A stretch of DNA of 33,232 nt, from NCBI GenBank assembly GCA_026394155.1, contig JAPKYT010000120.1, forward strand, positions 1 to 33,232, written 5' to 3'. Of this stretch, positions 13,066 to 17,628 are shown piece by piece. Made by a program: the position numbers and the translations under genes. Position 1 is the first letter of the stretch, and every line of letters starts with the position of its first letter. The notes under the pieces were generated by a model. The model ran no database searches and had not been told where the DNA came from. It was given only the letters and a program-made list of their open reading frames with translations. This DNA is from a bacterium (lineage in GTDB: Bacteria; Electryoneota; RPQS01).

Positions 13066-13545
13066 ATGAAGGCATCTTACACGCGGCTGGCGGCTGTACT
13101 TCTGATGGCGCTCGCGTCCGTGGCGCTGGCGGCGGACAACGACAACCATCAAGTGACCGTCACCGTGAACGACATCAACGAACTGGCCGTCACCGGCGGC
13201 GACATCACGCTGATCATCAGCTCGGCTACGGCCGGACAAAACCCCAATCAGGCCACCGACAACACCTGCGGTCTGGAATGGACGGTGAACACCACCAACA
13301 AAAAGATCACCGTCGCCACCAATCAGTCCTCTTTCGCCCACACCTTGAAGGTGCAGGCGGCCAGCGTGTCGGGCGGAACTGCGGCCGCTGAAGTCACGAT
13401 TTCCGACACCGCACAGGATCTGGTGACGGGTGTGGCCACCACGCTGGGAACTTGCACGCTGAACTACCGTGCCACGGCCACGGCCGCGCAGGGCACGCAG
13501 TCTGTGGCGCATACCATCACCTTCACGATAACGGCTGCCAGCTAA
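13066..13545 (+). CDS. Small secreted beta-sandwich protein, candidate fibre subunit A
   Basis: 159 residues with a clear Sec signal peptide (MKASYTRLAAVLLMALASVALA, cleavage near residue 22). The mature part is Thr/Val/Ala-rich with alternating hydrophobic residues, as expected for an Ig-like beta-sandwich. It is paralogous to the next gene: shared landmarks are GD(I/V)xLxI, ATAGQ/AAAGQ, LEWT, KKI, LGTCTLNYRA and a closing TITFTIT strand. It differs by a roughly 14-residue N-terminal extension with alternating valines (NHQVTVTVNDINELAVTG) and by a second Cys (TCGLEW) that could form a disulfide with the one in GTCTL. AGAGGAGAA at 13055-13063 marks ATG 13066. First of four closely spaced genes (subunit A, subunit B, chaperone-like, barrel protein). 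I do not recognise a named family; the fibre-subunit role is inferred from context. Confidence 0.75.
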   Translation: MKASYTRLAAVLLMALASVALAADNDNHQVTVTVNDINELAVTGGDITLIISSATAGQNPNQATDNTCGLEWTVNTTNKKITVATNQSSFAHTLKVQAASVSGGTAAAEVTISDTAQDLVTGVATTLGTCTLNYRATATAAQGTQSVAHTITFTITAAS

Positions 13546-13577
13546 CGCAGCCTGTCCGCCCTGTGCAGGGGCTCACG

Positions 13578-14036
13578 GTGAAGAGAATACTTCCCACGCT
13601 GGCGGCGACGGCGGCCATTTTCTTGAGTTCGCTTGGACAGGCCGCCGACGTTGCGATTCTCAATGGCGACGTCAGCCTGACCATCACGACGGCCGCCGCC
13701 GGTCAGCAGCCTCCGGCCGTGACGGACGAGACCGGGCAGTTGGAGTGGACCACGCTGGTCACCGATGCGGTGAAGAAGATCATCGCCCAGACCAATCTGG
13801 CCGGCCCGAGTTATACGCTGTCGGTTCGGGCCGTCAACATCTCCGCGGGGGACGGAACCGGAGCGGGCGCGGTCGTGTTGAGCACGACTCCCGCCGATCT
13901 GGTAGTGGACATTCCTTCGGGAATCCAGCCCTTGGATCCCGGCACCTGCACGCTCCGTTACGCGGCCTCAGCCACCGTTACCGGCGGCGCCGGCACCGAC
14001 AATCATTCGGTGACGTTCACCATTACGGACCAGTAG
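13578..14036 (+). CDS. Small secreted beta-sandwich protein, candidate fibre subunit B
   Basis: 152 residues starting at GTG 13578, with CAGGGG 7 bases upstream. The signal peptide is MKRILPTLAATAAIFLSSLGQA. The mature part is a paralogue of the preceding protein (GDVSLTIT, AAAGQ, LEWT, KKI, GTCTLRYAA, SVTFTIT end). Unlike subunit A it starts almost directly with the first core strand and has only one Cys. If these are donor-strand-complemented subunits, the lack of an N-terminal extension would suit a terminal (tip) subunit; that is speculation. An in-frame ATG at 13452 overlaps subunit A and has no signal peptide, so I reject it. It lies 32 bp after subunit A and 16 bp before the chaperone-like gene. 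Confidence 0.72.
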   Translation: MKRILPTLAATAAIFLSSLGQAADVAILNGDVSLTITTAAAGQQPPAVTDETGQLEWTTLVTDAVKKIIAQTNLAGPSYTLSVRAVNISAGDGTGAGAVVLSTTPADLVVDIPSGIQPLDPGTCTLRYAASATVTGGAGTDNHSVTFTITDQ

Positions 14037-14052
14037 AATCCGGGGAGACGTT

Positions 14053-14847
14053 GTGATTGCCAGACGGACATTCATTTTGCTGGCGCTGTTCGCGTTGACG
14101 CTACCGGCCGGAGCCGGCATTTCGGTGGGCACGCTCACTCTCGAAAGCGAAGCGCAACGGGGGCAGACCTACCGCGGGACCTTCACCGTAGCCAACACCG
14201 ACACGGTGCCCCGAATCGCTGTGGTTTATCAGACCGACTACCTGTTCAACAGCGACGGCAGCAATCGGTTCGATGAGCCCGGACAGGCGAAGCGCTCAAA
14301 TGCCTCGTGGATCACGTTCAGTCCGCATCGGATTGAAGTGCCGCCGGGGCAAAGCGCGACCGTCAGCTATGAGGTCTGTGTGCCGGATGAAGCGGCGCTG
14401 ATCGGCACGTATTGGAGCATGCTGATGGTGGAGGAGGTCGCGGATCCGGGCCTTCCGGCGCGGCTCCAGCGCAACCAGACGGAAGTGCGGCAGACGGTCC
14501 GGTATGGTGTTCAGTGCATTACTCACATCGGCGGCACCGGCCGCGCCCAGCTCGCCTTCACCGGCACCCGGCTCGTGTCCGAAGAAGGCGAGAGCCGCGA
14601 ATTGCAGGTGGACGTGGAGAACACCGGCGAGCGCTGGCTGTCGCCGGCGGCCTGGATGGAACTCTACGACGGTGACGGTCATCAGGTGGGACGGTTCGAA
14701 AGCGAAAAGAAGAGGATTTTTCCCGGAACATCGGTTCGCTTCCGCATCAGTCTGGGCGACACGCCCTCCGGAAAGTACAAGGCGTTGGTGGTGCTGGACA
14801 ACGGAGATCAGAATGTCTTCGGTGCAAAGTACGATCTGGAATATTAG
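14053..14847 (+). CDS. Periplasmic PapD-like pilus chaperone (candidate)
   Basis: 264 residues, GTG start with GGGGAG about 6 bases upstream, and a signal peptide ending near LTLPAGA. Two Ig-like beta-sandwich domains are apparent. The N-terminal one (about 20-135) contains TFTVANTDT, then NASWITFSPHRIEVPPGQSA and a YEVCVPDEAA strand, the pattern of the PapD N-domain (N-x-sheet, W...P..., PG...). The C-terminal one (about 165-264) contains LQVDVENTGERWL, a short glycine turn, KKRIFPGTSVRF and PSGKYKALVVLDNGD. Chaperones of the chaperone-usher pathway fold fibre subunits by lending a beta strand; gene order (two subunits, chaperone, barrel protein) matches that pathway. I see the fold pattern but no diagnostic signature, so this remains a candidate. 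The next gene starts 4 bases after the stop. Confidence 0.62.
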   Translation: MIARRTFILLALFALTLPAGAGISVGTLTLESEAQRGQTYRGTFTVANTDTVPRIAVVYQTDYLFNSDGSNRFDEPGQAKRSNASWITFSPHRIEVPPGQSATVSYEVCVPDEAALIGTYWSMLMVEEVADPGLPARLQRNQTEVRQTVRYGVQCITHIGGTGRAQLAFTGTRLVSEEGESRELQVDVENTGERWLSPAAWMELYDGDGHQVGRFESEKKRIFPGTSVRFRISLGDTPSGKYKALVVLDNGDQNVFGAKYDLEY

Positions 14848-14850
14848 ACC

Positions 14851-17628
14851 TTGCGAGACTTCTGTCTATCCCTTGCTGCGCTGGCCATCCTGTCGGCGGC
14901 CGCAACGGCTTTAGCCGCAGGTGGTGTTCTCCTCGATCCCGGCGCGGAGAGTGCGGTGCGCGTGGAAGCACCGCATCTGCTCACGCGCGCGGTCGCGGTC
15001 ACCAACGCCGGCGCCGACCGGCGCGAGTTCCGCGAAGACGTTCGCTTGCCGCAGGGCTGGCGGAACGTCACCGCGGACTCCGTCTTTTTTCTCGCGCCCC
15101 AAGAGCGCGAGGTGCGCCTGCTCTGCATCGCCATACCCGCCGCCGCCGCTCCCGGAGCTTATTCGCTGAACTATGCCGTGCGCGACCGCCGTGACGGGAT
15201 CGCCGTTGCCGACACGGTCATTCGGGTCGAGGTGCTGCCCGTCCTGAAGATTGACCTCGCCATACGTGACGCTCCGCGCCGCGTGCTGGCCGGCGAGGAG
15301 TTCGCCGTCCGCTTCGAAATCTCGAGCCGCGGCAATATCCCTTGCACGGTGAGCGTGCACGTGCAAACCTCGGCGGGACTGCCGGTGCGCATCAGCGAAG
15401 ATCGGGTCACGCTCGAGCCCGGCCAGAGCCGAATCTTGACCGCTTATGCGAAGAGCGAGCGGAATCTCCGCCAAGCCCAGCCGCAATGGCTGACGGTGCG
15501 AGCCGAAGCGGTGGAAGGAGAGGTGCGCAGCGCCGCCCAGACCACCATGGCGGTAAATGCGCTGCCGCAGCCCAACCGCGGCGACGATCTCTACCACCGC
15601 GTGCCGTCGCATGCCGCGTTGCGCTACATGGGAGCGGAGGACGAAAACGGATTGCAGCTTGAACTGGGGGGCAGCGGCACGCTCGATGCGCACGGCGATC
15701 ATCGCGTCGAATATCTGATTCGCGGACCGCGCGACCTCGAACGCCACCTCTACGGCCTGCGCGATGAGTACTACCTGAGCCTTCAGAACCGTTATGGTGA
15801 GCTACGGGCCGGAGATCTCTTGTTCAGCCTCTCCCGCCTCACCGAGCAGAATCGTTTGGGCCGCGGCGCCAAAGCCGCCTATCACTCTGGACTCTTCACC
15901 GTCGGCGCCTATTCCTTCGCCAGCCGCGCCAAGTACCCCGACTTGTCGGAGACGGCGGCGTTCTTCAGCGTCACGCCGCGCGCGCCGGTGCAGTTCAAGC
16001 TCAACTTCCTCGACAAGAGCACGGCCCAAGCTCATCGCCGCCTGCTGACGCTTTCGGGCGGCACAGGTGTACTCCGTCACACCAATATCGAAGCCGAAAT
16101 CGGAGCCGGACAGAGCCTGAAGAACGCGGACGCGACCGCCACCGCCGTGTGGGGTCGCGTCCAGCGCGATCTTCCGCTGGGCGCGCGGCTGTCCGCCGAG
16201 AAGGCCCTGGCCGCGCCCGGCTTTCCCGGCTACTATGGCGATCAGGATTATAACGCGGTCGCGCTCTACCTTCCACTCGGTGCAAAGGCGCGCTGGCAGA
16301 CCTCCTACCGTCGAACCGCCCAGAATCTCGATGGTGACACCGCTTTCTCAACCGCTTTGCGCGAGCACGAACTGCTCTCGACCGTGTCGTATGCGTTTCC
16401 TTTCCGCACGCAACTGAACCTGGACCTCACCGACCTGAACCGGCGCGACGCGCTGCAGCCTGCCGACTTCGACTACGGCGAGCGGTTCGCCACGCTGCGC
16501 GTGCGGCAGCCGATTCGCCGCTTGACGCTGAGCGGACTTCTGCGGCAGGGTGTCTGGCGCGACCGCCGGGCCGGCGACTCGGGGCCGGCGGAGCGCTACG
16601 GCGCAAGCATCACCGTCTCGCCCGATTCACGTCAGAACTACACGGCCTCCTTCCAGACCGGGCACACGGGGCCGGAAGCGGTGCAGAATCGCATCTTCGG
16701 GCTGTCCGTCAGTTGCCGCGTGATCCCCGGACTGCTGCTGGCGGCGAACTGGCAGAAATCCAACTACCGCGGCTACCTGGTCTATGAGAACGATCAACTG
16801 GCGCTCGATGTTCGCTACACGCTTTTCCGCCGCCACACGCTCTCCTTCAAGTACCGCCGACTGGAATACGAGCAGGATTACCTGTCGCGGGGTACTTCGT
16901 GGATGGTCAGTTATGAGCTGCCGGTGGGAATGCCGGTCGGCCGTCAGGACAAGTTCGGCAGCGTCAAGGGACGGGTTTGCGACGCGGAAGACGGCCAACA
17001 CGCGGGTCTTTCCGGCGTGGTGCTGACGCTGGACGGCCGCGCGGCGCTGACCGACCGCAAGGGCAACTACATCTTCCCGTCGGTGGAACCGGGAGTGCAC
17101 TACCTGCAAGTGGAAAAGTCGAGCATCGGGCTGGATCGTGTCACCATGCAACGCGCGCCGGTGGAAATGCGCGTGCGCGGCGGATACAGCGAGGTGCTGA
17201 ATTTGGCCGTGGTGCGGGGCGCGGTGCTCTCCGGCGAAGTGGCCCTCTTCGGTTCGGGTTCCGGCAGTGCGCGCGGCATCTTCGTCGAGAGCGACAGCGC
17301 CGCGTCCGGCTCCGACAGTCTCGCGTATCTTTACAGCCTGCCCGGTGTGGAAGTGGAACTGCGCGGCGACCAAGAGCTGCGCCGCGTGCTCACCGACCGC
17401 AACGGCCGCTTCACATTTGACGAACTCGTGCCCGGCCGCTGGGTGTTGATGGTATCCCCGTTCAGTCTTCCCGCCTTCCATGATCCGGAATCCGAGACTT
17501 ATGAGATCATGGTCGAGCCAGCTTCGCACACGGATCTTGCGTTGCGGGTGGTGCCGCGCAAGCGCTCCGTCATCATCGTGGACGAAGGCAAGGTTCCGGT
17601 CATCTCCACCCGCAAATTCTCCCGGTGA
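14851..17628 (+). CDS. Large outer-membrane beta-barrel, usher-like protein
   Basis: 925 residues from a TTG start 3 bases after the chaperone stop (weak GGA upstream), so probably translationally coupled. Signal peptide near residues 1-23 (LSLAALAILSAAATALA). Two Ig-like sandwiches follow (about 25-130 and 130-240, NEW3-like, e.g. VAVTNAGADRREF and FEISSRGNIPCTVSV). A long region (about 245-705) has alternating aromatic/polar strands and short turns typical of a many-stranded outer-membrane barrel, including RYGELRAGDLLFSLSRL. Two C-terminal beta-sandwiches of the carboxypeptidase-regulatory/SdrD type follow (GSVKGRVCDAEDG ... LTDRKGNYIFPSVEPG; EVELRGDQELRRVLTDRNG). Ushers have the same N-domain, barrel, two C-domain plan. 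I cannot recognise the classical usher signature, so usher-like is an inference from architecture and neighbours. Last gene of the operon. Confidence 0.65.
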   Translation: MRDFCLSLAALAILSAAATALAAGGVLLDPGAESAVRVEAPHLLTRAVAVTNAGADRREFREDVRLPQGWRNVTADSVFFLAPQEREVRLLCIAIPAAAAPGAYSLNYAVRDRRDGIAVADTVIRVEVLPVLKIDLAIRDAPRRVLAGEEFAVRFEISSRGNIPCTVSVHVQTSAGLPVRISEDRVTLEPGQSRILTAYAKSERNLRQAQPQWLTVRAEAVEGEVRSAAQTTMAVNALPQPNRGDDLYHRVPSHAALRYMGAEDENGLQLELGGSGTLDAHGDHRVEYLIRGPRDLERHLYGLRDEYYLSLQNRYGELRAGDLLFSLSRLTEQNRLGRGAKAAYHSGLFTVGAYSFASRAKYPDLSETAAFFSVTPRAPVQFKLNFLDKSTAQAHRRLLTLSGGTGVLRHTNIEAEIGAGQSLKNADATATAVWGRVQRDLPLGARLSAEKALAAPGFPGYYGDQDYNAVALYLPLGAKARWQTSYRRTAQNLDGDTAFSTALREHELLSTVSYAFPFRTQLNLDLTDLNRRDALQPADFDYGERFATLRVRQPIRRLTLSGLLRQGVWRDRRAGDSGPAERYGASITVSPDSRQNYTASFQTGHTGPEAVQNRIFGLSVSCRVIPGLLLAANWQKSNYRGYLVYENDQLALDVRYTLFRRHTLSFKYRRLEYEQDYLSRGTSWMVSYELPVGMPVGRQDKFGSVKGRVCDAEDGQHAGLSGVVLTLDGRAALTDRKGNYIFPSVEPGVHYLQVEKSSIGLDRVTMQRAPVEMRVRGGYSEVLNLAVVRGAVLSGEVALFGSGSGSARGIFVESDSAASGSDSLAYLYSLPGVEVELRGDQELRRVLTDRNGRFTFDELVPGRWVLMVSPFSLPAFHDPESETYEIMVEPASHTDLALRVVPRKRSVIIVDEGKVPVISTRKFSR

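Follow-up and report, generated by a model that had tools for sequence, protein, structure and literature searches.

A four-gene cassette proposed to assemble surface fibres in a chaperone-usher manner, found in about 20 mostly diderm phyla

Gene content, order and distribution of the cassette

We examined a stretch of 33,232 nucleotides (hereafter the window; contig JAPKYT010000120.1 of assembly GCA_026394155.1) from a bacterium of the GTDB lineage Electryoneota, RPQS01. It contains a cassette of four genes, SU1, SU2, CH and US, which follow one another in the same direction on the + strand with intergenic gaps of 32, 16 and 3 bases; all four proteins begin with a signal-peptide-like sequence (Table 1). 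Our reading, which we consider probable, is that the cassette is a chaperone-usher-type fibre assembly system with SU1 and SU2 as subunits, CH as chaperone and US as usher-like barrel protein, and that it forms a branch not described in the literature searched. An earlier note on this DNA had seen four tightly spaced genes, two of them paralogous, in the order subunit, subunit, chaperone, usher of a chaperone-usher operon, and had recognised no classical signature in any of them. All of this was borne out. The four open reading frames are present, SU1 and SU2 find each other in phmmer with an E-value of about 1e-20, and the window proteins match no pilin, chaperone or usher family in Pfam or NCBIfam, where they hit generic domains only. 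Computation supports the gene set and its order, their conservation, the fold class of CH, the barrel nature of US, and the existence and positions of two subunit classes.

Table 1. Positions of the cassette genes and their features in the window (aa, amino acids).
Feature	Position	Strand	Description and basis
SU1	13066..13545	+	ATG start, 159 aa; class I, with signal peptide plus N-terminal extension, predicted to polymerise; no Pfam family
N-terminal extension of SU1 (DNDNHQVTVTVNDINELAVT)	13135..13194	+	Predicted donor strand; alignment and column statistics, analogy with donor-strand exchange
SU2	13578..14036	+	GTG start, 152 aa; class II subunit without N-terminal extension, adjoins CH, predicted tip / first subunit; SU1 paralogue
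CH	14053..14847	+	GTG start, 264 aa; periplasmic two-domain PapD-fold / WxLIP-like chaperone (predicted)
G1 strand of CH (RYGVQCITHI)	14500..14529	+	C-terminal part of predicted donor-strand motif, conserved R-Y-G-x-Q; model secondary structure and column statistics
US	14851..17628	+	TTG start, 925 aa; usher-like outer-membrane barrel protein (predicted)
US N-terminal Ig-like domains 1 (NEW3/NPCBM_assoc) and 2	14926..15564	+	Pfam PF10633, E 3e-5, just over cut-off; model
US transmembrane barrel, 26 predicted strands	15607..16923	+	No plug-sized insertion; DSSP of model
Most conserved US barrel loops LIRGPRDLERHLYGLRDEY ... AGDLLFSLSRLTEQNRLGRG	15724..15855	+	Candidate lumen gate; alignment and column conservation
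US C-terminal domains CTD1, CTD2	16957..17607	+	CarboxypepD_reg / transthyretin-like, predicted periplasmic; Pfam PF13620, E 4e-13

The cassette is conserved as a unit, well beyond what chance would produce. CH recurs at 51-71% identity in six further genomes of the order, always inside the same SU1-SU2-CH-US arrangement (in one of them US is cut by the contig end), so that the synteny comparison suggested in the earlier note came out positive. One scan of the GTDB species genomes with the CH alignment yielded 80 loci. After iterated profile searches US lies directly downstream of CH in 76 of the 82 loci that hold a CH gene, behind the subunit gene or genes, and one to seven subunit genes surround CH in nearly all of them. 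The SU-CH-US order was found in about 20 phyla, mostly diderm, and thus extends well beyond a single candidate phylum. In a tree of 74 CH proteins, 19 named phylum-level groups are represented in addition to KSB1 and unnamed bins; the tree requires 25 changes of phylum label, compared to 39.6 in shuffles, which means that members of one phylum mostly cluster together. The closest relative with a name belongs to the window's genus and carries the label candidate division KSB1. The scan and the tree rule out confinement to one candidate phylum; of the earlier note's suggestion of an unrecognised branch in a candidate phylum, the branch remains probable and the restriction falls. The hosts include cultured purple sulphur bacteria as well as Planctomycetota, Verrucomicrobiota, Spirochaetota, Ignavibacteriota and the diderm firmicute Orenia; to our knowledge chaperone-usher systems are seldom annotated in the last five.

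One of the two main rival explanations is a strongly diverged archaic chaperone-usher pathway, which would derive from a PF00577 usher together with a PapD_N chaperone. The gene order and gene content agree with such an origin. The family searches argue against it, since the window proteins match neither the Pfam usher nor the PapD family, and PF00577 is found neither in the window genome nor in 24 other genomes that hold the cassette. In a sample of 386 genomes, CH (E <=1e-40) occurred in 13, 7 of them from the window's own order, and recognised ushers passed the cut-off in 6; the two sets of genomes do not overlap.

The predicted chaperone CH and the barrel protein US

For structure prediction with AlphaFold2 the stop codon between two neighbouring genes was read through, so that two proteins were modelled as one chain; this was done for SU-CH of a relative (locus L038) and for CH-US of the window. 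CH reached a predicted local distance difference test score (pLDDT) of about 95-98 in the L038 model and, for the most part, >85 in the window model. The model has the two-domain, PapD-like fold of the two-Ig protein that had been expected at this position. The CH model of L038 matched an enterococcal WxLIP first (Foldseek E 4e-12; VIA-align Z 16.9), followed by CfaA, YadV, FimC, CupB2, CsuC, DraB, Caf1M and PapD, that is by every class of fimbrial chaperone, at Z 11-13; the CH of the window matched WxLIP with Z 16.6.

The sequence comparisons give the same ranking. A PDB search with the single CH sequence gave no match, and the only significant PDB match of the CH profile was EfmWxLIP1 (E 2e-4). 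In Pfam, 22 of 74 CH proteins matched WxLIP_PGBD weakly; the CH of the window hit Ig families below the threshold only, and the PapD family neither matched it nor was listed among the 74 relatives. The NCBIfam fimbrial chaperone model reached no better than E 0.18 with the window protein. The profile comparison with archaic chaperones, which the earlier note had proposed, was positive: hhalign of CH with five such proteins taken from whole genomes gave a probability of 94 (E 1.4e-7) over both domains and placed VRYGVQCIT of CH on MRIGIPVFV, while a mismatched control gave 12. On the models and alignments CH is a two-domain PapD-fold protein that is nearest to WxLIP by sequence and fold, with the fimbrial chaperones second. 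The positive comparison is what a diverged archaic pathway would predict; the fact that every fimbrial chaperone is further from CH than WxLIP, in sequence as in fold, speaks against that origin.

Gram-positive WxL clusters encode small WxL, large WxL and WxLIP proteins, the last composed of DUF916 and DUF3324. The resemblance of CH to WxLIP brings in the second main rival, a diderm WxL system in which CH and the SU proteins would remain bound to each other permanently, at the surface or in the cell wall, as has been proposed for WxLIP and WxL. US would then do no more than export or anchor this complex, and no polymer would be formed. The profile match, the fold match and the weak WxLIP_PGBD matches fit this explanation, and in the Gram-positive clusters, too, small proteins are paired with a two-Ig partner (PMC10599100). 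It is at odds with the end of the protein: virtually all WxLIP proteins have a C-terminal transmembrane helix (PMC10599100), whereas CH ends at the last strand of domain 2 and has none. It is also at odds with the gene that follows CH, which nearly always encodes an outer-membrane barrel.

The G1 strand of the first CH domain resembles a donor strand. Its alternate columns 135, 137, 141, 143, 145 and 147 are occupied by large hydrophobic residues in 84-100% of the sequences; the alternation is interrupted by a conserved Gln at column 139, and column 143 is Tyr in 93%. In Csu chaperones the G1 donor residues are Val110, Phe112 and Met114 together with the highly conserved Tyr116 (PMC4654587). 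CH and the archaic CsuC thus have in common an alternating hydrophobic G1 motif and a conserved Tyr.

The CH-US model of the window has a mean pLDDT of 88.6. The barrel strands fall between model residues 499 and 937, and the longest loop between strands has about 13 residues. According to this model US is a large outer-membrane barrel, and it is no standard usher. The barrel and the N-terminal Ig-like domains agree with the earlier note, which had placed Ig-like domains at both ends; the C-terminal domains turned out to be of the CarboxypepD_reg, transthyretin-like type. FimD chains are among the best Foldseek matches of US (E 1e-13). VIA-align gave Z 17.5 with FimD and 16.7 with PapC, both aligned through the C-terminal domains, and high values with the alginate exporter AlgE as well. 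The two domains behind the barrel are shared with archaic ushers, which fits a diverged archaic pathway; the N-terminal domains of US, which are of the Ig/NEW3 type, are not.

The most conserved region of US is formed by the first barrel hairpins (RGPD...GxRDEY...GDxxYxLSPLTExxRYGRG). Judged by their conservation, these loops are a candidate for a lumen gate that would replace the plug. In four relatives from different phyla (L019:4201-7662, L030:6826-10128, L036:6820-10476 and L055:2947-6198) a SPOR domain follows the C-terminal domains of US. SPOR domains bind peptidoglycan, and the C-terminal end of US should therefore face the periplasm, as in ushers. The SPOR ends also suggest an attachment of the barrel to the cell wall in several phyla.

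Subunit classes and gene surroundings

The small proteins fall into two classes. In SU1-like proteins (class I) about 20 residues of the form Q-T-V-T-F-E-V-Q-A-I-N-E-I-S-V-S-G lie between the signal peptide and the core; the version in the window is HQVTVTVNDINELAVTGG. In SU2-like proteins the core starts directly, without an extension. Subunits encoded beside CH almost always belong to the extension-less kind, being either SU2-like or members of a second predicted tip family, class IIb, with the form ISVTGSW...TYSTTVTYTVVD and an end (TYSTTVTYT) like that of archaic pilins. An extension was scored in 6 of 73 subunits adjacent to CH and in 74 of 132 others (Fisher p 1.5e-12, with kinship ignored). 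In chaperone-usher fibres the N-terminal extension of one subunit fills the groove of its neighbour, and the tip subunit needs none. By analogy, the asymmetry of the subunits has the layout predicted for donor-strand polymers with a tip subunit. A WxL-type complex leaves this split by gene position unexplained.

Database and profile searches placed the subunits in no known family. Class I and class II proteins matched no Pfam family, the WxL family matched neither SU1, SU2 nor their relatives, which again argues against a WxL system, and the SU profile gave chance matches only in the PDB. Neither the comparison of class IIb with archaic pilins (probability 14) nor that of class I with class IIb (probability 8) was significant. 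A first SU-CH alignment, in which many rows contained SU alone, was rejected since MAFFT had aligned SU to CH. The earlier description of SU1 and SU2 as small secreted beta-sandwich proteins remains plausible, backed by their sequences and a model of middling confidence.

The start of SU2 is most likely the GTG at 13578, because the resulting signal peptide resembles those of SU2 relatives; 5' of the SU1 ATG (13066) lies AAGAGGAGAACG. As read from the open reading frames, the cassette is preceded by 2-oxoglutarate dehydrogenase genes and followed by a gene for an M16-type peptidase. In L017, from a different genus of the family, relatives of the same genes flank the cassette.

Further lineages (L126-L130, L137 and L138) contain more remote clusters that resemble SU-CH-US and differ from it in architecture. 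Three of them (L128, L129 and L137) encode a protein of about 460 aa with a subunit-like strand at its end, possibly a two-domain adhesin. A high-GC, Thermus-like genome (L020:6076-10513) has a distant CH (29% identity) and a 1070-aa barrel protein with an extra 162-aa gene between them. At L136:4257-7830, in a complete 0.8 Mb genome that is probably reduced and possibly from a monoderm lineage, each of two CH-like proteins follows a secreted protein whose end resembles GTYNTIIKFT, and no barrel gene adjoins. Other families of the window's phylum have proteins of about 550 aa that contain two CH-like regions and lie beside small secreted proteins (L023:7680-9317, L024:6815-8443 and L025:9431-11119), in L023 near a secretin (PF00263); they possibly represent a different use of WxLIP-like domains.

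Assembly model, known systems and significance

Several results weigh against a chaperone-usher function. The predicted barrel, with 26 strands and no plug, is unlike the 24-stranded usher, an outcome that the earlier note had listed among those that would refute its reading. Its best VIA-align match is MtrB, which also has 26 strands (Z 21.7, root-mean-square deviation 4.7, 414 residues), and the profile comparison of US with archaic ushers, at a probability of 96.8, is not specific, since MtrB as a control reached 90.3. The read-through models gave no clear picture of either complex: the predicted template modelling score was 0.59 for CH-US and 0.62 for SU-CH, with a pLDDT of 53-92 for SU. 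Finally, because hydrophobic positions were a condition of the pattern by which class I proteins were gathered, the alternation in their extension is in part a product of that selection, unlike the positional bias. We therefore put the weight on this bias and on residues that the pattern does not fix, namely Thr7 (89%), Ala12 (82%), Asn14 (82%) and Glu15 (86%).

The structural matches would suit a US that is some other conduit or porin, such as an MtrB-like electron conduit or a polysaccharide exporter like AlgE, with the small proteins as accessories. US shares with MtrB/PioB barrels the geometry of 26 strands; it differs from them in its additional periplasmic domains at both ends and in having neither a match to their family nor a multihaem cytochrome partner. 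PF11854 (MtrB_PioB) matched nothing in the window genome, US included, the cassette contains no cytochrome or polysaccharide gene, and US nearly always occurs together with a PapD-fold protein and small beta proteins that are exported. We regard this explanation as very improbable.

The cassette resembles the archaic (sigma) pili, exemplified by Csu of Acinetobacter baumannii, in the order subunits-chaperone-usher, the two-Ig PapD fold, the N-terminal donor-like extension of the subunits, the two domains after the barrel and, we infer, a tip subunit without an extension. It shares no sequence family with them. The archaic usher has 24 strands and a plug, whereas US is predicted to have 26 and none; usher N-terminal domains stand in place of the Ig-like (NEW3-like) ones of US; and the archaic tip gene lies at the end of the operon, whereas the presumed tip gene of the cassette lies just before the chaperone gene. 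With a barrel predicted to have 26 strands and no plug, and with a WxLIP-like CH, the cassette should not be filed in the known archaic branch, and descent from that branch by strong divergence seems unlikely to us. Its likeness to the Gram-positive WxL clusters is limited to CH and the small all-beta proteins encoded alongside. It falls outside the WxL system, as it has neither a WxL domain nor a membrane anchor on CH; its barrel partner is nearly always present and its hosts are mostly diderm. We therefore consider a WxL-type complex improbable as well. The best-supported statement, from sequence and models, is that the cassette would work like a chaperone-usher pathway, yet it lacks the sequence families of that pathway (PapD, usher) and, by prediction, its barrel of 24 strands plus plug.

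Under the chaperone-usher reading, SU1 and SU2 would be exported into the periplasm. There each subunit, presumed to lack a strand, would be held by the alternating-hydrophobic G1 strand that the first domain of CH provides; CH would then carry the subunit to US and dock. US would be a plug-less outer-membrane barrel, probably of 26 strands, whose terminal domains, Ig-like at the N-terminus and transthyretin-like at the C-terminus, lie in the periplasm. At this barrel the strand of CH would give way to the extension of the next SU1, one subunit at a time, and the growing chain would be translocated. SU2 would lead as the outermost tip, because a subunit without an extension could only be the first. 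The product may be an adhesive or structural fibre. The open literature searched, in which preprints and most subscription journals were outside coverage, holds no prior description of such a system.

Whether the cassette is a separate donor-strand fibre branch, spread over about 20 mostly diderm phyla and combining WxLIP-type chaperones with a plug-less 26-stranded barrel, we judge to be evenly balanced. If it is, the Gram-positive WxL system and the Gram-negative chaperone-usher pili would be two descendants of one older chaperone-subunit principle, and the cassette is possibly a bridge between them. Confirmation would mean that many of these bacteria possess a surface-fibre system and that a barrel without a plug can serve as an usher. 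Since the nearest relative of CH comes from Gram-positive bacteria and does not depend on an outer membrane, ideas on how chaperone-usher pili originated would also become testable.

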